Below are positions 5,549-62,379 of a DNA stretch of 64,000 bases, piece by piece. The DNA is from Methylophilus sp. Leaf416 (GTDB taxonomy: Bacteria; Pseudomonadota; Gammaproteobacteria; Burkholderiales; Methylophilaceae). Location of the stretch: the NCBI RefSeq assembly GCF_001424665.1, contig NZ_LMQS01000004.1, forward strand, positions 62,001-126,000, read 5' to 3'. The position numbers and the translations under genes are program-made. The notes under the pieces are model-generated. The model saw only the letters and a program-made list of their open reading frames with translations, was not told the DNA's origin and did not search any database. Each line of letters begins with the position of its first letter. Position 1 is the stretch's first letter.

Positions 5549-6016
5549 ATGTTGGAAGTATTGATATTTATTTATCAAAACTATTGGGACAAACATGATG
5601 CGTTTGAGTTGAAAGAAACCGACGAAGCCATCATGGCCTATGAATTGTCCCAGGCAGGATTTAACCACCAGGATATTCTGCACGCGGTAGACTGGGTAAA
5701 AGACCTGCGCCGCTCGGTTGCGCATCCGCAATATTTGCAGAATCCTTCTGCCCTGCGTATTTTCTGCGAGATGGAACGCGATAAAATTAATGATGAGAGT
5801 CTGAACTTTCTCTGTCTATTAGAGAAAAGTGACATCATCAGCGCTTATGAGCGTGACCTGATTATCGACCGCTGCATGGTGTTGCCACAGGAAACCTTAA
5901 GCATGGAAGATATCCGCTGGATCACCATGATGGTGCTGTGGGATGAAAGCCGTAAACAGGATTACCTGTTTGTTGAAGATGCGTTATTTAATCCGAAAGG
6001 TCTGTCGTTGCAATAA
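5549..6016 (+). CDS. smg: Smg family protein (DUF494)
   Basis: The protein is 155 residues, the full length of the Smg/DUF494 family. It starts MLEVLIFIYQNYWD and is acidic and helical. A ribosome binding site (GAGGAG) sits about 7 nt before the ATG. Smg has long been found downstream of dprA (smf) in proteobacteria, but its function is not established. It is followed by a strong terminator and then by convergent metF, so it is the last gene of the LysM-dprA-smg unit. Confidence 0.92.
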   Translation: MLEVLIFIYQNYWDKHDAFELKETDEAIMAYELSQAGFNHQDILHAVDWVKDLRRSVAHPQYLQNPSALRIFCEMERDKINDESLNFLCLLEKSDIISAYERDLIIDRCMVLPQETLSMEDIRWITMMVLWDESRKQDYLFVEDALFNPKGLSLQ

Positions 6017-50229: not shown

Positions 50230-53200
50230 ATGAGCGCGTTGAAGATTGTATTGTTAAGCATACTATTGCTTTCAAATAAGGCTGGGGCCGAACCCGCACC
50301 CGCAACAGCCGCTGTCACGGTACAATCATTCTCGCCACAAGGTGAAATAAAAGCCGTACGCCAAGTGAGCGCACGCTTCTCAGAACCTATGGTGGCCTTT
50401 GGTGACCCCAGACTTGAATCGCCCTTTGACATCAGTTGCCCGGCACCCGGCAACGGCCACTGGGCCGATGCACGTAACTGGGTCTACGATTTTGACGATG
50501 ACCTGCCCGCGGGACTGAAGTGTACTTTCACACCAAAATCCTCCAGCAAAAGCCTGAATGGCGTGTCGCTTGATCGTAAATCTTTCAGCTTCAACACCGG
50601 CGGTCCGGCCATTCAGCTTTCCCATCCTTACGAAGGTAATGAGTCCATTGATGAAGAGCAGGTATTCCTGTTGGGGCTGGACGCGCCGGTCAATCTTGAA
50701 TCCGTGAAACAGCACGCCGCTTGCAGTATTAATGGCGTGGGTGACCGTATTCCGTTAAGGATTATCGAAGGCAGCCAGCGCGAAAAAATCCTGGCCGAGC
50801 AGGCTAGCCGTGCCAGTAATTTCTTTCTGGTCATCACCAAAAAAGCTAAACAAGGCATCGTTGAAGTCAAAGATAACCGCTTGAAAAACGCAACTGTGGT
50901 CGTGGCCCAATGTGACCGCAAGTTACCGGCCGGCAGCAAGGTGACTTTATGGTGGGACAAAGGCATCACCTCAACCTCAGGCATTGCCACTTCACAGGCC
51001 CAGTCACTGCAATTTGCCGTGCGCGAGGCATTTAAAGTCAGTGTCAATTGCACGCGCACCAACCCGAAAGCGGGCTGCGTGCCGGTGCTGCCAATTACGG
51101 TGCAATTCAGCGCGCCGGTAGAACGCGATGTTGCCAGTAAGTTATTGCTTAAGACTGCCGATGGCAAGCAAATAGCACCGGTGATTGCCAAGAATGACAC
51201 CGGTAAAACCTTGGAGTCGGTGTCTTTCCGCGGGCCATTTACCGAAAAAAGCAGCATCAGCCTGTCGCTGCCTTATGGCTTCAAGGATGACGCTGATCGC
51301 TCACCCGTGAACAGTGCGTCTTTCCCGCTGAAACTGAATATTGATGAAGACCCGCCACTAATCAAATTCCCGTCGCGCTTTGGTATTCTCGAACAACATG
51401 CACAACCTGCCCTGCCCGTCAGCGTGCGGAATGTGGAGGCAACATTGACCGGCGTGCAAGTGCAACCTGGTGCATCCACGACCAGTAAAGGCGTTGTCGG
51501 CAGGCTGGCACTGGACGATGACGCCACGCTGGCCGAATGGTTTTTTCGCGTCACCCGCCACCCTTACGATAACAAGTTAGATCAACAGTTTTCGCGCGAG
51601 CATGACCGTTACCCACGCGAAGGCGAAATCCCGCTATTGATGGGGTCAGCCAGGGATTCACGTTTTAACACCAGCCCACTGCAACTGCCGCGCGCCCATG
51701 GTGATAAAACCTTTGAGTTGATAGGTGTGCCACTGAAAAAGCCTGGTTTTTATGTAGTGGAATTCGCCAGTGACCGCTTGGGTGCTACCCTGCATGGCGA
51801 GCAAAAGCCCTACTATGTATCTTCCAGTGCGTTAGTGACCAATATGGCAGTGCATCTGAAACAGGGTCGTGAATCTTCGCTGGTATGGGTCACACGTTTG
51901 GATAATGCACAACCGGTCGCTAATGCTGCAGTTCGGGTTTCCACCTGTGAAGGTCGCACCTTGTGGGAAGGCAAAACAGATGGCAAGGGGATGGCACATA
52001 TTGAAGAAACGCTGCCTGACGGCTATTACAACCATTGCTCGGGTTTGCTGGCAACAGCGCGCAAGGATGATGATATGTCCTTCGTGTTTTCATCCTGGGA
52101 CGATGGCATCAGCCCCTGGCAATTCAACCTTGGCGGCGGCTCTTCCGGCACCCCGCTGATCGCACATACGGTATTTGACCGGCCGCTGTTCCGCGCCGGT
52201 GAAAAAGTGTCCATGAAACACTTCATCCGCGTACGTACCGGCAAAGGCTTTGATCTTGCAGACAACCAGCCAGATACTATTTCAGTCGTGCATGAGGGCA
52301 GCGGCGAGAAATACGATGTACCGGTGAAATGGCCCAATGCTGCCGGCATCTCGACCTGGGAAATCCCTAAGGAAGCAAAGTTGGGTACTTACTCTGTGTC
52401 GTTAATGGCAGGGCAGTTCATGCTCACCTCGGGCGCGTTCCGCGTGGAGCAGTACCGGGTGCCGCTGATGAAAGCAGTGCTGAAACCGCCTGTGCAACCA
52501 TTGATTAACGGCAATCAACTGGCGATTGATGCCCAGCTGAATTATTTGGCGGGAGGCGCCGCTGCCGGCACCCCGGTCAAATTCCGCAGCCGACTGGTGC
52601 GCTACCCGTTGCAATACAGCCAGTTTGAAGATTTCAGTTTTGGCGGGCGCATTCCAAAAGAGGGCATAGAGGCTGTACAACCCTATTCCTATGATCCGGA
52701 AATGGAAGAAGGGGGTGAAAGCGATGCAGGTGATGAATCTACCCAGGTAAAAGGCTACCCGGCGAAAACGGTCAATCTGTCGCTGGATGGCAATGGCGGT
52801 GCCAGGGTCACGTTCGACAAATTACCCAGGGTGCAGGAATCGCATGCGCTTGAGGTGGAGATGGAATACACAGACCCTAACGGACAGATTTTGAATGCGG
52901 CCACCCAGGCCATCATCCTGCCTGCGGCATTATCGCTAGGCATGAAAATAGAAGGCTTTTTTGCCACCAAGGAACGGCTGGCGTTCAAAGTACTGGCGCT
53001 GGATGCGGCCGGCAAACCTTGGGCAGGCCGCAAAGTGAATATCGAAGCATATACGCGTAAAACTTATGCTTACCGCAAGCGCATGCTGGGCGGGTTTTAT
53101 GCCTATGAGCAAACCGCTGAAGTGAAGCAGGCAGGCAATGTTTGCAGTGGCAATACTGATAAACGCGGCATGCTGGTTTGCGATGGCCCGGCGCCGGAAT

Positions 53201-56169
53201 CCGGCGAAATCATACTTGTCGCCACCGCCCAGGATAAACAGGGCAATATTGCCATCGCCAGCAATGAAGTGTACGTGGCAGACGACAATGCCTGGTTTGA
53301 CGCCTCGCAAAGTGACCGCATAGATTTGTTGGCGGATAAGCGCGCCTATGAACCTGGTGAAACGGCACGCTTTGAAGTGCGCATGCCGTTCCGCAAAGCG
53401 ACTGCCCTGGTGACAGTCGAGCGCGAAGGCATCCTCGACTCTTTCGTAGTACCTGTCAGTGCTAGTTCCCCTTTCATCAAGGTGCCGATTGCCAGCAATT
53501 ACGGCCCGAACGCCTATGTATCGGTGATGGTGGTGCGTGGCCGCATAGACCCCGAAGTGTCGGGCCAGTTTTCATGGCTGAAACGCATGGTTTACCGCAT
53601 AGGCATGTTCTTCGGGCTGGTCAAGAAAATGCCGGTTGAGGTAGATACGCGGCCCACTGCACTGGTGGATTTAACCAAGCCGGCATTCAAGCTCGGCATG
53701 ACACAAATACGCGTCGGCTGGCAGGCCTATAGCCTGAAAGTCAACGTCGAACCCGACCGCCAGACTTACCATGTGCGCGATAAAGCACGCGTGAAACTGA
53801 CGGTGACAGACCCATCCGGAAAACCTGCTGCCAATGCTGAAGTGGCATTGGCAGCAGTGGATGAAGGCCTGCTGCAACTGGCAAAACCGCAGTCGTGGAA
53901 TGTGCTGGAAGCGATGATGGAGCGGCGGCCAATTGAAGTACGTACGTCTACCGCGCAATCACAGGTGATAGGCAAACGCCATTTTGGCAAAAAAGCCGTA
54001 GCACCTGGCGGCGGCGGCGGCCAGGGCGCCAATGCACGTGAGTTGTTTGATACCTTGCTGTTATGGAAACCCAGCCTGAAACTGGATAAGCATGGCCAGG
54101 CAGTGGTGGATGTGCCCTTGAATGACTCTTTAACCTCATTCCGGATTGCGGCGATTGCCCACGCCGGGGCGATGCGTTTTGGTACGGCATCGACACTGAT
54201 CCGCAGCGGCCAGGAAGTGATGCTGTTCTCGGGCTTGCCGCCGTTTGTACGTGAAGGCGACCAGTTCAATGCCATGGTCACTGTGCGTAATGGTGCCGAG
54301 CGGCCATTGACCCTGGATGTGGCGGTAGCGGATGACATCAGCAAAACCCCGCACACCCAGCGCGTAACGCTGAAACAGGGCCTGGGCGCTACCTTATCTT
54401 TCCCGGCGACTGTTCCGTTAAATGCAACTCGTCTTAACTGGGCTATCAGTGCCAGGGAAGTGGTCACCGGTAACAATCAAAAACCCGCGCAAGACCTGCT
54501 GAAAATTTCACAGCAAGTCGGTGCCGCGTATCCGGTACGGGTATACCAGCAAACCTTGCAGCAATTGAATTCAGGACAACCATCAAACCCAGAAGCGCAA
54601 ACGAATGCACCATTGACCTTCTCCGTCCAGCAACCGGCCGGTGCGATTGCAGGACGCGGCGGTATCGATGTCCAGCTGACGCGCTCACTGGCTGGCAACC
54701 AGGACGCACTACGCGAATGGATGAGCAAATATCCCTATGTTTGCCTGGAGCAACGCGCTTCTGTCGCGGTCACGCTGGAAAGCGAAGGCGGCTGGAACCA
54801 GGTGATGAACAGCCTGCCTGCGCACTTGGATCAGGATGGCCTCGCCAGGTATTTTGCCATCGACTGGTTGCAGGGTGACGATACGCTGACCAGCTACCTG
54901 CTGCGTATCGCTGATGAAGCGCATTACACGATTCCGGAGGGTCCGCGTGAGCGCATGTTGAAAGGCCTGGAAGATTTTGTCGCCGGCCGTATCCACCGCT
55001 ATGGCAGCTTGCAAACAGCTGATTTAACGCTGCGTAAACTGGCCGCGATTGATGCACTGGCCAGGTATGAGCGCGCGCGCCCGGCCATGCTGGAACCACT
55101 GGAAATCAGTCCCAACCTGTGGCCAAGCTCGGGCGTGATTGACTGGCTATCCGTGTTGCAAAAGCTGCCAGAAATTCCCGAACATGACGAAAAACTGAAA
55201 CAGGCACGCCAGGTCTTGCAATCGCGGCTGACATTCTCAGGCACCACCATGAATTTCTCTACCGAGAAACAGGATTACCTGTGGTGGCTAATGGTGTCGC
55301 CCGACCTGAATGCAGTACGTGCACTGCGCCTGCTAGCAGAAGACCCGGAGATGGAAGCGGCTGACATAGGCCGTCTGGCGCGTGGTGCACTATCGCGCCA
55401 GGTCAACGGCCACTGGAGCACTACTGTTGCCAATGCCTGGGGCGCGACCGCTTTGCGTTACTTCCAGGCACATTTTGAGAAAGCACCGGTAGCTGGCAGC
55501 ACGCAAGTCAAACTGGGCGATCAAGCGCAGTCACTCAATTGGTCTGGCGCAAAAACGGCCTCAGAAGAAACCGGGCATCATGACCCGGTAAAAGGCACGC
55601 CTATGGGCGCCGGATTAGCCACGCATTTTGCCTGGCCAAAAAATGCCACACCACTGTCTATCCAGCACTTGGGCAATGGCAAACCATGGGCATTTGTGAC
55701 TTCCAAAGCCGCATTGCCGCTGGATAAACCATTATTTTCCGGCTATAAACTCAAACGCACAGTGACTACAATTGAACAAAAAAACGGTGGTCTGTGGCAA
55801 CGCGGGGATACCTACCGCGTGCAACTGGAAATTGATGCGCAGACCGATATGACCTGGGTAGTGGTGAATGACCCGGTACCGGCGGGAGCGACTATTTTAG
55901 GTAGCGGCCTTGGCGGCGATTCCAGCCTGTTGGCAGCCGGAGAAAAGAAACAAGGCTGGCAACGTCCTGCGTTTGAAGAACGCGCATTTGATGGCTTCCG
56001 CGCTTATTATTCATATGTACCTAAAGGCAAATTCAGCATCGAATACACCGTGCGGTTGAACAACGCTGGCCGCTTTGCCATGCCAGCCAGCCGTGTAGAG
56101 GCCATGTATGCGCCGGAGATATTTGCCGAACTGCCTGTCGCTGCCATAGAAGTAAAACCTGGCTTCTAA
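50230..56169 (+). CDS. Bacterial alpha-2-macroglobulin family protein
   Basis: The 1979-residue protein has an N-terminal signal peptide (1-20, ending AGA/EP) without a lipobox Cys, so it is likely soluble or periplasmic, unlike the lipoprotein YfhM. It contains several MG-type beta domains, the A2M signature LDKHGQAVVDVPLNDSLTSFR in parts, and the thioester motif CLEQ with Cys1505 (KYPYVCLEQRAS). Bacterial A2M traps proteases that enter the periplasm. It is longer than E. coli YfhM (about 1650). A GGGGGQGAN linker near residue 1260 marks a likely bait or flexible region. It is followed by pbpC, the standard partner. Confidence 0.93.
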   Translation: MSALKIVLLSILLLSNKAGAEPAPATAAVTVQSFSPQGEIKAVRQVSARFSEPMVAFGDPRLESPFDISCPAPGNGHWADARNWVYDFDDDLPAGLKCTFTPKSSSKSLNGVSLDRKSFSFNTGGPAIQLSHPYEGNESIDEEQVFLLGLDAPVNLESVKQHAACSINGVGDRIPLRIIEGSQREKILAEQASRASNFFLVITKKAKQGIVEVKDNRLKNATVVVAQCDRKLPAGSKVTLWWDKGITSTSGIATSQAQSLQFAVREAFKVSVNCTRTNPKAGCVPVLPITVQFSAPVERDVASKLLLKTADGKQIAPVIAKNDTGKTLESVSFRGPFTEKSSISLSLPYGFKDDADRSPVNSASFPLKLNIDEDPPLIKFPSRFGILEQHAQPALPVSVRNVEATLTGVQVQPGASTTSKGVVGRLALDDDATLAEWFFRVTRHPYDNKLDQQFSREHDRYPREGEIPLLMGSARDSRFNTSPLQLPRAHGDKTFELIGVPLKKPGFYVVEFASDRLGATLHGEQKPYYVSSSALVTNMAVHLKQGRESSLVWVTRLDNAQPVANAAVRVSTCEGRTLWEGKTDGKGMAHIEETLPDGYYNHCSGLLATARKDDDMSFVFSSWDDGISPWQFNLGGGSSGTPLIAHTVFDRPLFRAGEKVSMKHFIRVRTGKGFDLADNQPDTISVVHEGSGEKYDVPVKWPNAAGISTWEIPKEAKLGTYSVSLMAGQFMLTSGAFRVEQYRVPLMKAVLKPPVQPLINGNQLAIDAQLNYLAGGAAAGTPVKFRSRLVRYPLQYSQFEDFSFGGRIPKEGIEAVQPYSYDPEMEEGGESDAGDESTQVKGYPAKTVNLSLDGNGGARVTFDKLPRVQESHALEVEMEYTDPNGQILNAATQAIILPAALSLGMKIEGFFATKERLAFKVLALDAAGKPWAGRKVNIEAYTRKTYAYRKRMLGGFYAYEQTAEVKQAGNVCSGNTDKRGMLVCDGPAPESGEIILVATAQDKQGNIAIASNEVYVADDNAWFDASQSDRIDLLADKRAYEPGETARFEVRMPFRKATALVTVEREGILDSFVVPVSASSPFIKVPIASNYGPNAYVSVMVVRGRIDPEVSGQFSWLKRMVYRIGMFFGLVKKMPVEVDTRPTALVDLTKPAFKLGMTQIRVGWQAYSLKVNVEPDRQTYHVRDKARVKLTVTDPSGKPAANAEVALAAVDEGLLQLAKPQSWNVLEAMMERRPIEVRTSTAQSQVIGKRHFGKKAVAPGGGGGQGANARELFDTLLLWKPSLKLDKHGQAVVDVPLNDSLTSFRIAAIAHAGAMRFGTASTLIRSGQEVMLFSGLPPFVREGDQFNAMVTVRNGAERPLTLDVAVADDISKTPHTQRVTLKQGLGATLSFPATVPLNATRLNWAISAREVVTGNNQKPAQDLLKISQQVGAAYPVRVYQQTLQQLNSGQPSNPEAQTNAPLTFSVQQPAGAIAGRGGIDVQLTRSLAGNQDALREWMSKYPYVCLEQRASVAVTLESEGGWNQVMNSLPAHLDQDGLARYFAIDWLQGDDTLTSYLLRIADEAHYTIPEGPRERMLKGLEDFVAGRIHRYGSLQTADLTLRKLAAIDALARYERARPAMLEPLEISPNLWPSSGVIDWLSVLQKLPEIPEHDEKLKQARQVLQSRLTFSGTTMNFSTEKQDYLWWLMVSPDLNAVRALRLLAEDPEMEAADIGRLARGALSRQVNGHWSTTVANAWGATALRYFQAHFEKAPVAGSTQVKLGDQAQSLNWSGAKTASEETGHHDPVKGTPMGAGLATHFAWPKNATPLSIQHLGNGKPWAFVTSKAALPLDKPLFSGYKLKRTVTTIEQKNGGLWQRGDTYRVQLEIDAQTDMTWVVVNDPVPAGATILGSGLGGDSSLLAAGEKKQGWQRPAFEERAFDGFRAYYSYVPKGKFSIEYTVRLNNAGRFAMPASRVEAMYAPEIFAELPVAAIEVKPGF

Positions 56170-56216
56170 TGAGCATGTAGGCAAAGGAATCAAGTCCAGT
56201 TGAGGAAAGAACTGCA

Positions 56217-58406
56217 GTGACCCGCAAGCGTATCTTGCTCGCAACAATGACCATCTTGGTGATTGTTGCGAGTGCCTGGGTGTTTCTTGCGCCTGTGCCA
56301 TCATTTGAACAAGCCAGGTCTGCTACCCGTAGTTCTGAAGCGGTTTTGCTGGATAGGGACGGCCAGGTTTTGCAACGCCTGCGCCTGGATAAACAACGCC
56401 GTATGCTGGCATGGGTTCCCTTGCAGGACATTTCTCCCACACTGCAACAGGCTGTATTAGTCGCCGAAGATAAACGGTTTTACAGTCACTCAGGCGTAGA
56501 TTTAATGGCGGCAGGTTCAGCCGTACTGGACAACCTGCATCGCTCGCGTGCCCGGGGTGCAAGTACCATCAGCATGCAATTAGCCAAGCTGTTAAATGCT
56601 CCAGCTGACGGTTCTTCGCAAAACAGCTGGCTGTCTAAGCTCAACCAGATACGGTATGCGCTGGCGCTGGAATTGCACTGGAGCAAACCGCAAATCCTGG
56701 AAGCCTACCTGAATCGCGTCACGTTTCGCGGTGAGCTTGTTGGTGTAGATGCTGCGGCAAGAGGTTTGTTGGCTAAAGGTCCGAATGGACTGGATAACAT
56801 AGATGCAGCTATCCTGGCATCACTCATCAAATCGCCGGGAGCCTCCCGCAGCCGGCTGGCGAAGCGTGCCTGTGCAACGCTGCAGACCATGTCGTTTTTC
56901 ACCGGCAACAAATCCAAGCCGGATAGCTGCATGCAAGTGACCTTGCGCACAGCACTGTTGCCGTCACGACCGTTTCCAATCGCGGGTATGGACGATGCAC
57001 CGCATCTGGCGCGACATTTATTAAACAAAAATGGCGAACAGTTGAAGAGCAGTATCGATGCCAGTGTGCAGCGTTTTGCGCGCAATACCCTGCACACTCA
57101 CCTGGCACAACTGGCAGACCAGAATGTGGAAGATGGCGCGGTGGTGGTGCTCGATAACCTGAGCGGCGAAGTGCTCGCCTATGTCGGGTCCAGCGGTGAT
57201 TTATCCGGCGCGTCAGAAGTGGATGGCGTGGCTGCTTTGCGTCAGCCCGGCTCCACCCTTAAACCGTTTTTGTATGCACTGGCGATGGACCAGGGATGGC
57301 TGAATGCCAGTTCGGTACTGGACGATTCCCCATTGGCCCTGACCACCCCTTCCGGGCTGTATATCCCGCAAGATTATGACCGGCATTTCCAGGGCGCCAT
57401 CAGTGTGCGCACGGCATTGGGTGCGTCGTTGAATGTACCCGCGATCCGCACGCTGACGCTGGTCGGCGTTGATCCTTTTCTGGATAAACTCAGGAAACTA
57501 GGCCTTAGCAGCCTGACCCGTGATGCAGATCATTACGGCTTTGGCCTGGCACTCGGTGGGGCAGAGACCACGCTGCTGCAATTGACTAACGCTTATCGCG
57601 CATTAGCCAATGGCGGTCTATGGCAGGCGGTCAGTTTTATACCTGCCAGCACATCTACAGTAGAAGGTGAATCCAGGCAGGTGTTCAGCCCGCAAGCCAG
57701 CTTTATCATCGGAGATATACTGTCGGATCCCGGCGCACGCACCATCACTTTCGGGCTATCCAGCCCGCTCTCGACCCGCACCTGGGCAGCGGTGAAGACC
57801 GGCACCAGCAAGGCCATGCGAGATAACTGGGCGATTGGTTATACTGACCGTTATACAGTGGGGGTCTGGGTAGGTAATTTTTCCGGTGCGCCCATGTGGG
57901 ATGTGTCTGGCATCACTGGTGCGGCGCCGGTGTGGCGTGATATCGTTGAATACCTTCACCAAAAACAACATAGCCAGCAACCGACGCCTCCAGATGGCCT
58001 TTTGCATCAGCAAGTGCGTTATCAACCACCGATTGAGTCACCGCGGCAAGAGTGGGTGATCGCAGACAATCGCATCACGCAGGTCGTATCCAATCAAATC
58101 ATCAATATCAATGTTACCCCCGCATCAGCCATGCTGATTGCGCCGCCAGACTCCGCTATCATCGCCCCTGATCCGGATATCCCGCAGCAACGTCAGGCAC
58201 TGCTGCTGCAATCCGGAGGCACGGGTAAATCCTGCATGTTCTTGGACAATCGCCCGGTAGCTGCCTGCGGCAGAACAAAAGCTCTAGTGCCCTTGCCTAT
58301 GCCAGGGAAGCATGAACTGGTGCTGACAGATCCACATAATAGTATTTTAGACAAACATGTGTTCGAGGTGAGGGGGCTGAATGTACGCCCCTCCAAATCA
58401 CACTGA
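56217..58406 (+). CDS. pbpC: Penicillin-binding protein 1C
   Basis: The start is GTG at 56217 with GAGGAAAG upstream (729 residues). One membrane anchor lies at 5-24. The transglycosylase domain has E84 in VAEDKRFYSHSGVD and GASTISMQLAKLL. The transpeptidase has S346 in RQPGSTLKP and KTG at 527-529 (VKTGTSKAM). A C-terminal PBP1C domain (BiPBP_C) covers about 645-725. It synthesises or repairs peptidoglycan. The A2M gene 47 bp upstream is its usual partner, thought to shield the periplasm after wall damage while PBP1C repairs it. Confidence 0.95.
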   Translation: MTRKRILLATMTILVIVASAWVFLAPVPSFEQARSATRSSEAVLLDRDGQVLQRLRLDKQRRMLAWVPLQDISPTLQQAVLVAEDKRFYSHSGVDLMAAGSAVLDNLHRSRARGASTISMQLAKLLNAPADGSSQNSWLSKLNQIRYALALELHWSKPQILEAYLNRVTFRGELVGVDAAARGLLAKGPNGLDNIDAAILASLIKSPGASRSRLAKRACATLQTMSFFTGNKSKPDSCMQVTLRTALLPSRPFPIAGMDDAPHLARHLLNKNGEQLKSSIDASVQRFARNTLHTHLAQLADQNVEDGAVVVLDNLSGEVLAYVGSSGDLSGASEVDGVAALRQPGSTLKPFLYALAMDQGWLNASSVLDDSPLALTTPSGLYIPQDYDRHFQGAISVRTALGASLNVPAIRTLTLVGVDPFLDKLRKLGLSSLTRDADHYGFGLALGGAETTLLQLTNAYRALANGGLWQAVSFIPASTSTVEGESRQVFSPQASFIIGDILSDPGARTITFGLSSPLSTRTWAAVKTGTSKAMRDNWAIGYTDRYTVGVWVGNFSGAPMWDVSGITGAAPVWRDIVEYLHQKQHSQQPTPPDGLLHQQVRYQPPIESPRQEWVIADNRITQVVSNQIININVTPASAMLIAPPDSAIIAPDPDIPQQRQALLLQSGGTGKSCMFLDNRPVAACGRTKALVPLPMPGKHELVLTDPHNSILDKHVFEVRGLNVRPSKSH

Positions 58407-58413
58407 GTGAGGC

Positions 58414-59100
58414 TTAAGCTTTCAGTTGCATTAGCGGATGTTTGAAATTGCTATACCTTACAAACAGACTGATCATGGCCAAACCCATAAAAATCATTCC
58501 AGATGTTTGGTTTTCCGGCACTGAGCTTATCCAGGTCACTTGCCAGCTGCCTGGTGAGTTTTGATTTGACCCTGCGAATCCACTAAATGGCTCATCATAT
58601 CCATTGATGTTGTCACTGATAGTAGATGTCAGCATTTGTACGTAATGCGCGCGCCCACCGATAAAGAGATACTGATCTACGGAAATATCCCATGCTGATG
58701 GTAGACCTGCTGCATCCATGCTGATGATATCCAGATATGCCCCTACCCTTAGATCATAGGGGGGAAAAGGATCCGGTATTGGTGCTCCCGGATATTCGAG
58801 TGTGAAAACACTTCCTTCATAAGGGGTACCGGTCATGGTGACAGAGATGATATCCGCTAACTGCGTGCTTGGCGTAAGTAATGATGAAGTCCTGATAGCC
58901 GCAGTGATCGTGCTTTGAAATGTTTTTTCGACCGTAATCCAGTCATCCCCTTCACGCATTATGGTTGAGGAAGTGACATTAAAAGGCTGCCCAGTGTAAC
59001 TATAGATATAATCTGCTCTAGCCATGCCAGATGACATCACTAACGACATCACTAAAGAAAAATAAATTGCTGGATGCAATCGATTGAGTTTCCAATGCAT
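58414..59100 (-). CDS. Secreted protein with PEP-CTERM-like tail
   Basis: The 228 residues have a signal peptide (about 1-29, ending ARA/DY), a beta-rich body without motifs I know, and a C-terminal tail: VPENQTSGMIFMGLAMISLF and then basic residues. This layout is that of PEP-CTERM sorting signals, but the usual VPEP reads VPEN. Such proteins are processed by exosortase and linked to the surface polymer matrix. No exosortase gene is in the window. It is convergent with pbpC (8-bp gap). Confidence 0.72.
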   Translation of the reverse strand: MHWKLNRLHPAIYFSLVMSLVMSSGMARADYIYSYTGQPFNVTSSTIMREGDDWITVEKTFQSTITAAIRTSSLLTPSTQLADIISVTMTGTPYEGSVFTLEYPGAPIPDPFPPYDLRVGAYLDIISMDAAGLPSAWDISVDQYLFIGGRAHYVQMLTSTISDNINGYDEPFSGFAGSNQNSPGSWQVTWISSVPENQTSGMIFMGLAMISLFVRYSNFKHPLMQLKA

Positions 59101-59378: not shown

Positions 59379-59618
59379 ATGTTTAAATTCAAAAAATGGC
59401 TATGGACCCAATGGCAAAAATTGCTAGGCACAGACCGCGCTTATGCCAGATATCTGAGCCATTTTCATCGCTACCAGGCGCAAGCTGCCGATAATGAACT
59501 GCAGCAATCTTTAAATCTTAAACCAATGAGTCGCCAAGCATTCGAGCAGGCTTGGCAAAAGAAAATGCTGAAGCCGACTGGAAAATCGTGTGGTTGCAAA
59601 CCTGGCGGTTCTTGCTAG
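59379..59618 (+). CDS. Small basic protein with a Cys-rich tail, unknown
   Basis: The 79-residue frame starts 6 nt after GAGGAGC and ends shortly before a strong terminator, so it is very likely a real gene. It is basic with an amphipathic helical N-terminus (FKKWLWTQWQKLLG) and ends SCGCKPGGSC. The size, the AYARYLSHFHRY stretch and the Cys tail are distantly like the YbdD/YjiX small proteins, but I cannot confirm this. It could be metal- or redox-linked because of the CxCx5C tail. Confidence 0.7.
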   Translation: MFKFKKWLWTQWQKLLGTDRAYARYLSHFHRYQAQAADNELQQSLNLKPMSRQAFEQAWQKKMLKPTGKSCGCKPGGSC

Positions 59619-59645
59619 CGACAAGAATCAATAAAAAATTTCATA

Positions 59646-59676
59646 AAAAAAAGCCGCATATCAATGCGGCTTTTTT
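59646..59676. terminator. Bidirectional Rho-independent terminator
   Basis: The stem AGCCGCAT/ATGCGGCT with loop ATCA is flanked by long A- and T-runs. It serves the small Cys-tailed gene (+) and the oxidase gene (-), which converge here. Confidence 0.93.
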
Positions 59677-59699
59677 ATTATCCAGTTATAAAGAATGAC

Positions 59700-61265
59700 T
59701 TAAAAAAGGGAATCCATATGCGATTTAAAGTAACGCGTCGCACACAAGCCTAAAGGGGTGTGATGCTTTGCAGGTGACATCCAGTCCACAAGGAAATTCA
59801 TCAGTGCTTCTTCATTGTCGATACTGTGCACATAACGCTCAAAAGACAGCTGGTCCTGGTTAAAATCGGTATCAGGCAATTTTTTACCGATACGGTTACC
59901 GGAATGGAAGTCATACACATTGCCATAACGGCTGTTTTTTGCATCTTCCTGCGCTTTGGACTGGCGTTCAACCATGCGCCATGGCCTACCTAACCGGGCC
60001 AGCATAGGCATACTTTCCAATGCATCTCCAGCAATCCAGTCATAAATCACTTGCTGTTCATAAGGTGTAAACACGCCAAACATGGCCGCTTTTTCACCGG
60101 CAATGACTTTCCAGAAAGGACTTTGTTCAGGGTCCTGGTGGCGTTTAATCCAGCCTGTTTTTTCCATTTCGTATAAAAACATGGCGACCTGTTCATTATC
60201 CTGCAACCATTCATTTACAGTCTTGCCGCCGATCACACAGCGGTCAGAATGCATGAATTGTCCGATGTTGGCTTTGCTTTGCAGAACCCTTACCACTTCG
60301 CCTTGCAGGTCGAAATGCCTGATGATATCCAGCGTACTCAATCCGACGTCATTTAACTTTACGCCAGCAATTACGCGTTGCATAAATTCGCGTGAGTTAC
60401 TAAACATTGGCATGGCTTCTTCAACCGCATCAATCGCTGAACGCGCATGACCAGATTGCGCATTATCAATAGTGGTGTGCAGCGTGAAATAATACGGATC
60501 TATATTGAGTTCTTTCAACTCGTAGGCAGTAATCAGCAGGTGCAGCGGTAGTTGCTCGTAGCCAAGATTAAAACCTATCACCTCCGGCAAATGGCTGTCA
60601 GTGTGTGCGGATAATGCTAATTGAATTGCACCCTGGGTGAAAAACTGGTCATCTAGCGTTTTCCAGTCTTCGCATCCATTGAGTTTTAATAGTTTGCGGT
60701 AAAGCACTACGTGGTTCATGGCTTCGACACCATCACCAAGTTCTTCGAGATAAATTTTGATCAGTGATGCTAGCCGAGGGTCTTGCCAATGACGCATCAA
60801 GCCAAATAACCATGCGCCATCTACCAGTTTGGTGGGTGCCACGGCTTTCAGGAAAAACAAAGCATGGGACTTGCTGCCGAAATACCACCTGGGTTGACCA
60901 GCTTTTCGCGCTGCCAGGTATTCCCGGTATTGACGGCCTACGATTTCATTATGTTCAGTCAGCCAGTGATCCAGCTCTTGAATACTGGCAGGCATGCTGG
61001 TGGCATGGCTGTCAGTTTCTTTTAACTTTTCAACCAGTAATTCTGCACTGTTTGCTTTGGTTGCTGCTGAATGATTAGATTCCAGCAAAGAGAAATAGAC
61101 TGATTTGGAAGTCCAGTGATTAACAGCCTTGCTTGGCTGACTGACCGCTCCCTGAGGCCTTTTTATTTCTCTTTCAAATTCAATACGCACACCAGACATA
61201 GTTACCGCCTCTGATTCATGAAGTTGGTAAGTTACGCATTTAGTGTCAAATTCCATATCAGACAA
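59700..61265 (-). CDS. Haem-oxygenase-like iron-containing redox enzyme, uncharacterised
   Basis: The 521 residues have about 90 variable residues, then a helical core matching the iron-containing redox family (haem-oxygenase-like metal oxidases). Candidate metal ligands are E174/E175 and H185 in YLEELGDGVEAMNH, E228 in LPEVIGF, and H263, D267 and H273 in HTTIDNAQSGH. The last spacing (H-x3-D-x5-H) differs from the common H-x3-D-x2-H. A C-terminal extension (about 320-521) has no motif I know. Known members use two iron or manganese atoms for N-oxygenation, C-C cleavage or fatty-acid decarboxylation. It is divergent from a methyltransferase gene. The start could also be a later ATG (MSGVRIEFE). 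Confidence 0.78.
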   Translation of the reverse strand: MSDMEFDTKCVTYQLHESEAVTMSGVRIEFEREIKRPQGAVSQPSKAVNHWTSKSVYFSLLESNHSAATKANSAELLVEKLKETDSHATSMPASIQELDHWLTEHNEIVGRQYREYLAARKAGQPRWYFGSKSHALFFLKAVAPTKLVDGAWLFGLMRHWQDPRLASLIKIYLEELGDGVEAMNHVVLYRKLLKLNGCEDWKTLDDQFFTQGAIQLALSAHTDSHLPEVIGFNLGYEQLPLHLLITAYELKELNIDPYYFTLHTTIDNAQSGHARSAIDAVEEAMPMFSNSREFMQRVIAGVKLNDVGLSTLDIIRHFDLQGEVVRVLQSKANIGQFMHSDRCVIGGKTVNEWLQDNEQVAMFLYEMEKTGWIKRHQDPEQSPFWKVIAGEKAAMFGVFTPYEQQVIYDWIAGDALESMPMLARLGRPWRMVERQSKAQEDAKNSRYGNVYDFHSGNRIGKKLPDTDFNQDQLSFERYVHSIDNEEALMNFLVDWMSPAKHHTPLGLCATRYFKSHMDSLF

Positions 61266-61353
61266 TCATGGAGATACATGTAGGAATACGCTTATTAAAA
61301 CAATTGCAGAGTTCTGTTAAGCTGCCATTACAACTCATCAAAGCATTGCAAAG

Positions 61354-62379
61354 GTGTTCAAAGTGATCAAGCAAGTCGATAATCCACCCGCCCAGGATAC
61401 TCTGGGCTACGATCCTCTAGAAAAGCTGTTGCAGGCTTTATATGAACGCGGTTACCGATTTGTCACGGTGACCCCGACCACGCATAGACTGGTAAATGAG
61501 CGCCCGGAAAATGCCTGGGCAAAAACTTTGCAGGATATTTTTGGCTGGAATCGTCCCTTCACGCAAGGAAGTATAGATGCTGATATTTTTGAGCTCATGC
61601 ATGCTGCCGCCGTGCTGCGTGCGGTAGATGATGGCTGGCAATCCCTGGTGCGCGTTTCCAGTGTCGCGGATAAATTATTTGTCCATTCCGGCTTTCCAAC
61701 CGAGGCACAAGACGCCGTGTTTTTTGGCCCGGATACCTATCGTTATATTAATGCCATGTATCACTCACTGGCGACACTGCAAGGTAAGGTTCAGCGTTGT
61801 GTGGATATAGGTACCGGGTCTGGAGTAGCAGCGATTTTACTGGCTGAAGCTTTACCATATGCAGAAATTTACGGTGTGGATATCAATGAGAAAGCGCTGG
61901 CTTTTTCAACGACCAACGCCAAGGCGAACAGCATTGCCAATGTCTATTTTCAATATAGTAATCTGCTGAATGATGTGCAAGGCGAGTTTGATGTGATTAT
62001 TGCCAACCCGCCTTATCTGGTAGACCCATCTGCCAGGGCATATCGCCATGGCAACGGGCCATTAGGTGCGCAGTTATCGCTGGATATTGTCGATGCTGCC
62101 CTGACCAGACTTTCTCCTGGCGGCACGCTCATGCTGTATACCGGTGTCGCAATCGTCGAAGGGCACGACCCGTTTCTGGAAGAAGTCAAACAGAAGACCA
62201 AAGAAGCTGGTTGCACCTATCAATATTCTGAGATAGACCCGGATATTTTCAGTGAAGAACTCGCTACCGATGCTTATGCGCGGGCAGACAGAATTGCCGC
62301 CGTCTGGTTATTGGTCAGCCGGCCTACCATTGAGGCAGATAACTTGCTGCAACTCATCAGCACAGTAGCTGAACCGTAA
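61354..62379 (+). CDS. SAM-dependent methyltransferase with NPPY motif
   Basis: The 341 residues have a SAM-binding motif VDIGTGSGVAAILLAEALP near 149 and IIANPPYLVDP with N218. This is the MTS/HemK-type core that methylates amide or amine nitrogen (glutamine, adenine or guanine). An N-terminal domain of about 145 residues precedes it, similar in layout to RlmG/RsmC or PrmB. The substrate cannot be told. The start is GTG at 61354 with weak upstream support. It lies 88 bp from and divergent to the haem-oxygenase-like enzyme, suggesting shared control. Confidence 0.85.
   Translation: MFKVIKQVDNPPAQDTLGYDPLEKLLQALYERGYRFVTVTPTTHRLVNERPENAWAKTLQDIFGWNRPFTQGSIDADIFELMHAAAVLRAVDDGWQSLVRVSSVADKLFVHSGFPTEAQDAVFFGPDTYRYINAMYHSLATLQGKVQRCVDIGTGSGVAAILLAEALPYAEIYGVDINEKALAFSTTNAKANSIANVYFQYSNLLNDVQGEFDVIIANPPYLVDPSARAYRHGNGPLGAQLSLDIVDAALTRLSPGGTLMLYTGVAIVEGHDPFLEEVKQKTKEAGCTYQYSEIDPDIFSEELATDAYARADRIAAVWLLVSRPTIEADNLLQLISTVAEP

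Follow-up and report, generated by a model that had tools for sequence, protein, structure and literature searches.

The window analysed here (64,000 nucleotides, positions 62,001 to 126,000 of contig NZ_LMQS01000004.1, from the 2.94 Mb genome of Methylophilus sp. Leaf416) encodes a haem-oxygenase-like oxidase akin to the Acinetobacter baumannii desiccation tolerance protein C (DtpC) and, divergently from it, a class I methyltransferase with an NPPY motif. The pairing of these two genes across genomes goes far beyond chance; that of the three-gene layout proposed in the initial annotation, which added a small Cys-tailed protein, does not. Because the two genes travel together across many bacteria, we suggest that their products act on one small molecule. 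We predict a two-enzyme module in which methylation and oxidation take place on the same amino-acid-derived compound, the product of which may aid survival of drying or oxidative stress, and put the probability of this reading at about one half. All three reading frames lie where they were first placed; those of the module, with the gap between them, are:

59700..61265, minus strand: DtpC-like haem-oxygenase-like oxidase (PF14518, model and fold matches, end-to-end DtpC alignment)
61354..62379, plus strand: class I methyltransferase with NPPY, divergently paired with the oxidase (PF05175, linkage)
61200..61353, no strand: divergent gap, assuming an oxidase start at 61199

The link first drawn between these two genes holds throughout the family of the window's genome, at most relatives elsewhere, and in every Pseudomonadaceae genome that carries both. 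Oxidases of the window's kind (hereafter long) are encoded in 18 of 187 Methylophilaceae genomes, and in all 18 the methyltransferase (METHYLTRANSFERASE) adjoins the gene divergently. A clear methyltransferase (E < 1e-120; the remaining matches start at about 1e-22, except for a second copy in G056) is present in 23 of the 187, namely the same 18 and five without the long oxidase. Four of these five have a short oxidase of 306-313 aa beside the methyltransferase (directly adjoining in two, across one PurD-like ATP-grasp gene in two), and the fifth has it at a distance of about 4 kb. This short oxidase resembles HrmI (E 3.1e-29), and as the methyltransferase is paired with it as well, we conclude that the methyltransferase follows this kind of oxidase. 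No match to the short oxidase was found in ten genomes with the long one, in a search that had no positive control.

In a sample of the class (369 genomes), two genomes besides that of the window have full-length oxidase matches (E 4.3e-186 and 1.3e-133), both with the methyltransferase adjacent. Five more match the oxidase weakly (E 1e-23 to 4e-20) and lack a clear methyltransferase, and in the class genome G212 the methyltransferase spans two contigs, its end overlapped by a short oxidase. At the best 80 of 519 oxidase relatives (the named loci), the methyltransferase lies within 400 bp of the oxidase in 63 cases (53 on the same strand, 8 divergent, 2 convergent). It is encoded elsewhere in 16 of the other 17 genomes and was not found in one (L104), so that 79 of 80 carry it overall. 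Among 198 Pseudomonadaceae genomes, sampled as the family of a Stutzerimonas genome, 91 have both genes, 8 the oxidase only, 2 the methyltransferase only and 97 neither (Fisher odds ratio 552, p 1e-43, uncorrected for kinship). The two genes are adjacent, at 14-305 bp, in all 91; the eight oxidase-only genomes form one clade in the tree, and no oxidase was found in the vicinity of either lone methyltransferase. The tree comprises 58 rows, 32 with the methyltransferase beside the oxidase and 26 without, and this label changes 8 times.

Plasmids also carry the genes. A plasmid collection contains 22 records with the methyltransferase at E 1e-20, none of them from Acinetobacter, and at four of seven loci examined a short oxidase stands beside it (two of these are near copies). 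A Comamonadaceae plasmid has a long oxidase among stress-type genes and no methyltransferase match. On two Sphingobium plasmids (L191, L192) the methyltransferase is followed by a dicarboxylate/glutamate-type symporter (PF00375 in L191), with no oxidase beside it.

Assignment of the oxidase to the haem-oxygenase-like, dimetal-type enzymes is supported by Pfam, fold and ligand conservation, as the ligand pattern read from the sequence had suggested. The PF14518 score is 89.2 bits against a gathering cut-off of 28.9 (E 3.6e-25); a direct sequence search against solved structures gave nothing credible. As annotated, the frame has a TTG start at 61265 and 521 codons. We consider an ATG at 61199 (residue 23) the likelier start, because it has GAGG upstream and coincides with the starts of relatives, and because the first 42 residues are of low confidence in the model. 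The protein would then have about 499 aa, and the gap to the methyltransferase would be 154 bp. The divergent arrangement described initially stands, and its gap of 88 bp applies to the TTG start. The gap probably holds the promoters; a sigma-70 scan found no promoter-like site in 61200..61353. In the 521-residue numbering used below, the core spans approximately residues 45-333, and the C-terminal extension noticed at the outset is real, running from about 334 to 521. The candidate metal ligands are:

60444..60745, minus strand: candidate metal-ligand stretches of the oxidase (coordinates derived from the frame)
60709-60745, minus strand: E174/E175 and H185, candidate ligands
about 60519-60521, minus strand: E249, candidate ligand
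60447-60479, minus strand: H263, D267 and H273, candidate ligands

These residues form the motifs E175-x9-H185 and H263-x3-D267-x5-H273. The ligand set reported for haem-oxygenase-like oxidases, E-H-E-H-(D/E)-H (PMC11363339), is found in E175, H185, E249, H263, D267 and H273, which, along with E174, are invariant in all 48 rows of an alignment (the window oxidase and 47 of the 80 named loci, leaving out 2 with an internal stop and 31 near copies). The third His, at D+6, is thus His in 48 of 48 rows, and position D+3 is occupied by Asp (19), Ala (9), Gly (8), Ser (5), Leu (3), Gln (2) or His (2). The model has no helix at residues 266-272.

A structure model computed from the 48 rows had a predicted local distance difference test score (pLDDT) of 85.4 and a predicted template modelling score of 0.84; that from the single sequence (pLDDT 35.8) was of no use. 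Among the best 50 fold matches listed, the solved folds nearest to the model are those of N-oxygenases: RohS (Z 21.0, root-mean-square deviation 3.7, 262 residues aligned; second RohS match 20.9), HrmI (Z 18.7) and SznF (Z 18.5), the best of these matches spanning approximately residues 45-333. Lower matches are FlcD (14.9 for 3bjd, and 14.4), CADD (13.3), BesC (12.5) and UndA (11.7), and the lowest named are AetD (10.0) and a true haem oxygenase (9.6). Since Z below about 13 may reflect mere helical likeness, we gave weight to the RohS, HrmI and SznF group only. The best Foldseek match had E 3.2e-3, and none reached 0.001. The E-x9-H spacing of the oxidase is identical to that of HrmI and SznF in the alignments. 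Unlike these enzymes, it lacks H-x3-D-x2-H, its third His being at D+6 rather than D+3; it is only 12-16% identical to RohS, HrmI and SznF, and bears its C-terminal extension where SznF has a cupin domain. Given the absence of H-x3-D-x2-H, we suggest that the oxidase may work like the N-oxygenases and do not file it among them.

The fold comparison bears on whether the oxidase acts on nitrogen at all. Within one pathway it could instead act on carbon, by desaturation, C-C cleavage or hydroxylation, the methylation being a later or separate tailoring step. Haem-oxygenase-like oxidases are reported to perform all three reactions, and MboA, whose spacing is H-x3-D-x4-H, installs an alkyne at an arginine of a peptide built by ATP-grasp ligases, so spacing does not fix the chemistry (PMC13185094). 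MboA, like other such oxidases, is absent among the 50 matches listed, which excludes nothing. Against action on carbon, the three best folds among those listed are all N-oxygenases, with Z of 18.5-21.0 versus 14.9 or less for the rest, and the short oxidase that partners the same methyltransferase is HrmI-like, although a shared fold by itself shows no function. We regard carbon chemistry as rather doubtful.

The oxidase lineage is already known from the report on DtpC of June 2026 (PMC13232832), which presents the protein as a desiccation factor of a new type. According to this report, each of the substitutions E143A, H153A and H232A abolishes protection against drying, and katE lies 54 bp from dtpC. 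A tblastn search of the plasmid collection showed Acinetobacter relatives of the oxidase. One of them, on an A. baumannii chromosome that the collection lists as a plasmid (L194), is an oxidase-like open reading frame (ORF) with its start at 5935 that reads E143, H153 and H232, and 54 bp past its stop begins a 714-aa ORF that is 60% identical to an annotated Acinetobacter catalase. We take the first to be dtpC, because the three residues and the 54 bp to katE are the same. The window oxidase aligns with it end to end (35.8% identity over 461 aa), its E175, H185 and H263 match E143, H153 and H232, and both proteins have the same C-terminal extension and H-x3-D-x5-H (H232-x3-D236-x5-H242 in DtpC). 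On this sequence evidence the oxidase is placed in the DtpC-like lineage. The initial annotation had called the oxidase uncharacterised and its H-x3-D-x5-H spacing peculiar; the former is superseded by the mutagenised relative (PMC13232832), the latter by the same spacing in DtpC. In the 58-row tree the two rows from Acinetobacter group with the Methylophilaceae clade (98/84), and their long branch and odd letter make-up leave the exact place unsure. There are two differences from DtpC. First, katE follows dtpC, and no katE match was found in the 64-kb window; for lack of this operon we do not file the oxidase as a DtpC orthologue. Second, a divergent methyltransferase stands beside the oxidase, and no member of its family was found in the three A. 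baumannii chromosomes of the plasmid collection.

A second, divergent DtpC-like oxidase without a methyltransferase was identified in all five genomes of genus g14, Methylobacillus (L019-L023 in G053-G057). The four aligned copies have other residues in place of E174/E175 and H273 and, in part, of H185 or H263/D267; judging by this, the paralogue is probably a pseudoenzyme. Four of the five adjoin a KGG-repeat stress-type protein. In L194, a KGG-repeat protein (at about 11569) lies approximately 4 kb from dtpC-katE and is 65% identical over 65 aa to the KGG protein beside the Methylobacillus paralogue.

The methyltransferase matches PF05175, a generic class I domain, with 63.9 bits (cut-off 23), and its NPPY motif occupies residues 218-221. 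This motif is typical of enzymes that methylate an amide, amine or guanidine-type nitrogen. NPPY and the class I core are shared with HemK/PrmC (profile match to HemK 2b3t, E 1.2e-17), but HemK/PrmC identity was rejected, as the scores are below the cut-offs of TIGR03534 (79.4 vs 199.1) and TIGR00536 (71 vs 115.5). The same motif and core are found in the AerE/PoyE N-methyltransferases, and there are also profile matches to 7rc2-7rc6, which we take to be AerE. AerE is described as an Asn N-methyltransferase (PMC11285071). The enzyme differs from HemK/PrmC and AerE/PoyE in that the matches cover the core only and the gene context is different.

With a HemK-like core and NPPY, the methyltransferase might modify the oxidase protein itself, for instance in setting up its active site, by HemK-like protein methylation. 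Partnership with two kinds of haem-oxygenase-like oxidase would be natural if the fold were recognised, and a self-modifying oxidase of the same fold, CADD, is reported to exist. Against this, DtpC and the oxidase-only Pseudomonadaceae clade manage without the methyltransferase, several methyltransferases have no adjoining oxidase, and nearby ligases and a dicarboxylate symporter point to small molecules. We consider modification of the oxidase improbable.

Under the two-enzyme module, the oxidase would bind two metals, probably iron, via E175, H185, E249, H263, D267 and H273 and activate O2. The methyltransferase would work on the compound that is oxidised, a small molecule derived from an amino acid, either ahead of this step or following it; the NPPY enzyme would put a methyl group on nitrogen, and the oxidase would oxidise the compound with O2. 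In some species, a ligase may join amino acids first. The product would be methylated and oxidised, perhaps N-oxygenated, and could help the cell through drying or oxidative stress. Such a one-pathway account is the most economical, and its nearest worked example is, by analogy, SznF, which is reported to act on a methylated substrate, N-methyl-arginine. Beyond what was computed here (family, ligand residues, N-oxygenase-like fold, DtpC kinship and two-gene linkage), we infer that the two enzymes share a substrate, that nitrogen is the site of action, that arginine is the source, and that the module serves in stress in this organism.

Additional genes could indicate the class of substrate. Clustering of ORFs across the 80 named loci revealed no conserved third gene, only the oxidase and methyltransferase occurring at more than 20 loci, and suffered from long antisense ORFs in GC-rich DNA (clusters with 60 and 43 loci). 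Genes for cyanophycin synthetase (cphA) near the oxidase emerged by tblastn only. We identified cphA-like genes at 17 of the 80 loci. At twelve, all in Massilia (L083, L094, L095, L098-L100, L102, L107, L108, L110, L111, L113), cphA immediately follows the oxidase gene on the same strand, and at four, in Pollutimonas and Pseudoduganella, it is approximately 1.8-2.6 kb past the methyltransferase. At L104, also Massilia, a cyanophycinase is directly downstream of the oxidase. NCBIfam scores for cyanophycin synthetase are 1028 bits (L110) and 1048 (L186) against a cut-off of 850, and for the cyanophycinase of L104, 263 against 126.6. A Sphingobium plasmid encodes, in order, cphA, isoaspartyl peptidase, cyanophycinase, methyltransferase, short oxidase and dicarboxylate symporter. 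The cphA linkages represent few evolutionary events, and cyanophycin as the general substrate was rejected, there being no link in Methylophilaceae.

Other ligases occur sporadically. A PurD-like ATP-grasp gene (TIGR00877 92.6 bits, cut-off 288) lies in the module of six Methylophilaceae genomes (L171-L173, L182-L184); five have it next to the methyltransferase, and one (G121) next to the oxidase. A YbdK-type carboxylate-amine ligase is present at 3 of 12 Pseudomonadaceae loci examined, twice beside the module and once beside a lone methyltransferase. In Komagataeibacter, a 361-aa gene beside the methyltransferase is recorded as D-Ala-D-Ala ligase, an identity that we rejected as it has no such Pfam domain; NCBIfam gives weak ATP-grasp matches (best E 2.3e-4). 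A haem-oxygenase-like oxidase with ATP-dependent ligases and amino-acid substrates recalls the MboA/mangotoxin-type clusters (PMC13185094), with the difference that ligases are near the window-type oxidase in some lineages only.

Several observations weigh against the two-enzyme module. The strongest, as regards an obligate pathway, is that DtpC protects without this methyltransferase: all three A. baumannii chromosomes in the plasmid collection have dtpC-like genes and lack it at E 1e-20. It is also missing from 8 of the 99 oxidase-bearing Pseudomonadaceae genomes, and at three of the seven plasmid loci examined no oxidase stands beside it. A profile comparison of the long and short oxidases gave a weak match (E 0.0011, probability 20). 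No cphA match was found in any genome searched of the window's genus, and in the family cphA is present in 1 of 18 oxidase genomes versus 25 of 169 others, i.e., there is no association. The PurD-like ATP-grasp gene accompanies the module in 6 of 187 family genomes and was found at none of the 80 named loci, so it was rejected as a third component of general occurrence; the YbdK-type ligase was likewise found at none of the 80. Genes resembling katE fall within the fetched stretch at two of the 80 loci, and the window contains none of the tested ligases, katE or stress-protein genes.

Alternatively, the oxidase alone may protect, as a metal sink or a slow scavenger of peroxide or superoxide, with no metabolite involved; the methyltransferase would then be a neighbour with a separate stress role, for instance in protein or RNA methylation. 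DtpC works in A. baumannii without this methyltransferase, and the core of the latter resembles that of HemK/PrmC. The authors of the DtpC report leave open metal sequestration, scavenging and synthesis of a protective small molecule, and found that an iron chelator helped dtpC mutants (PMC13232832). On the other side, the two genes stay together in three different gene orders, 16 of the 17 genomes in which they are unlinked still have both, and the methyltransferase also pairs with another oxidase, which is hard to explain for an unrelated neighbour; moreover, the HemK/PrmC cut-offs are not reached. Protection by the oxidase alone has a real but minor share of the probability, and we favour the two-enzyme module over it.

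In a bolder and distinctly tentative form, which we think unlikely as a whole, the module would belong to a so far undescribed route to a stress metabolite, found widely among beta- and gammaproteobacteria. Its substrate would be an arginine-like amino acid or another amide-ligated one, N-methylated and N-oxygenated along the lines of N-methyl-arginine and SznF. Acinetobacter DtpC would then be a reduced branch that lost the methyltransferase, and the Massilia oxidase would be wired to the metabolism of cyanophycin (poly-Asp-Arg).

The linkage gives the DtpC lineage, an orphan reported without a known reaction, a biochemical partner and a candidate substrate class, and thereby makes it directly testable whether DtpC is a metal sink, a scavenger or a biosynthetic enzyme. 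A methyltransferase family that has yet to be assigned also comes to light, with haem-oxygenase-like oxidases of two different kinds as its partners. We found no description of the oxidase-methyltransferase pair, the second oxidase partner or the cyanophycin-gene link in the literature searched, outside which most subscription journals lie, and the words 'methyltransferase', 'methyl' and 'cyanophycin' have no occurrences in the main text of the DtpC paper (PMC13232832). PMC13108848, PMC10849742, PMC10206079 and PMC8304167 were also consulted.

The remaining gene of the original three-gene layout is located as follows:

59379..59618, plus strand: small Cys-tailed gene, a bystander by its distribution; 79 aa ending SCGCKPGGSC, convergent to the oxidase
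59647..59676, no strand: hairpin separating the small gene from the oxidase gene (folding energy -17.7 kcal/mol, z -7.2)

Its length, terminal sequence and convergent orientation were correctly described. The protein scores 19.1 bits against Sel_put (PF04328), below the cut-off of 25. The terminator placed between it and the oxidase gene is backed by the hairpin, which is probably a two-way terminator, but is not listed by a consensus terminator scan, perhaps because the stem takes in the T run.

The initial annotation envisaged the oxidase and methyltransferase modifying this Cys-rich protein as a peptide substrate. The small gene is near the oxidase in the window, at 7 of 8 loci of the genus and at 3 of 4 named Methylophilus loci. 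Most members retain a Cys-rich end, variable in sequence (GGSC, GGCC and others). However, it is present in 17 of 22 genomes of the genus, eight with the oxidase and nine without, and it has no match at 10 loci elsewhere in the family or at the 76 other named loci; the hairpin, too, separates it from the oxidase gene. A role as partner or precursor was rejected on this distribution, and the peptide-modification layout, largely refuted and very improbable, loses its proposed peptide. Failure of the genes to co-occur, named at the outset as grounds for refutation, applies to the small gene and does not apply to the oxidase and methyltransferase. No precursor of the type of ribosomally synthesised and post-translationally modified peptides was found to co-occur with the enzymes, in a search that did not cover precursors below about 60 aa. 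The small gene also occurs in a genome without the oxidase-methyltransferase pair (G059, locus L158), approximately 0.7 kb from a YgjP-like gene; a similar gene follows the pair in the window. Since G059 has the small gene and the YgjP-like gene without the pair, the pair behaves as a cassette.

Upstream of the small gene, a frame at 58414-59100 (minus strand) has a weak PEP-CTERM-like end (NF038126 18.5 bits, below the cut-off of 50). The plus strand at 50230-58406 encodes a bacterial alpha-2-macroglobulin-type protein and, after it, a class C penicillin-binding protein, a common and ordinary pair.

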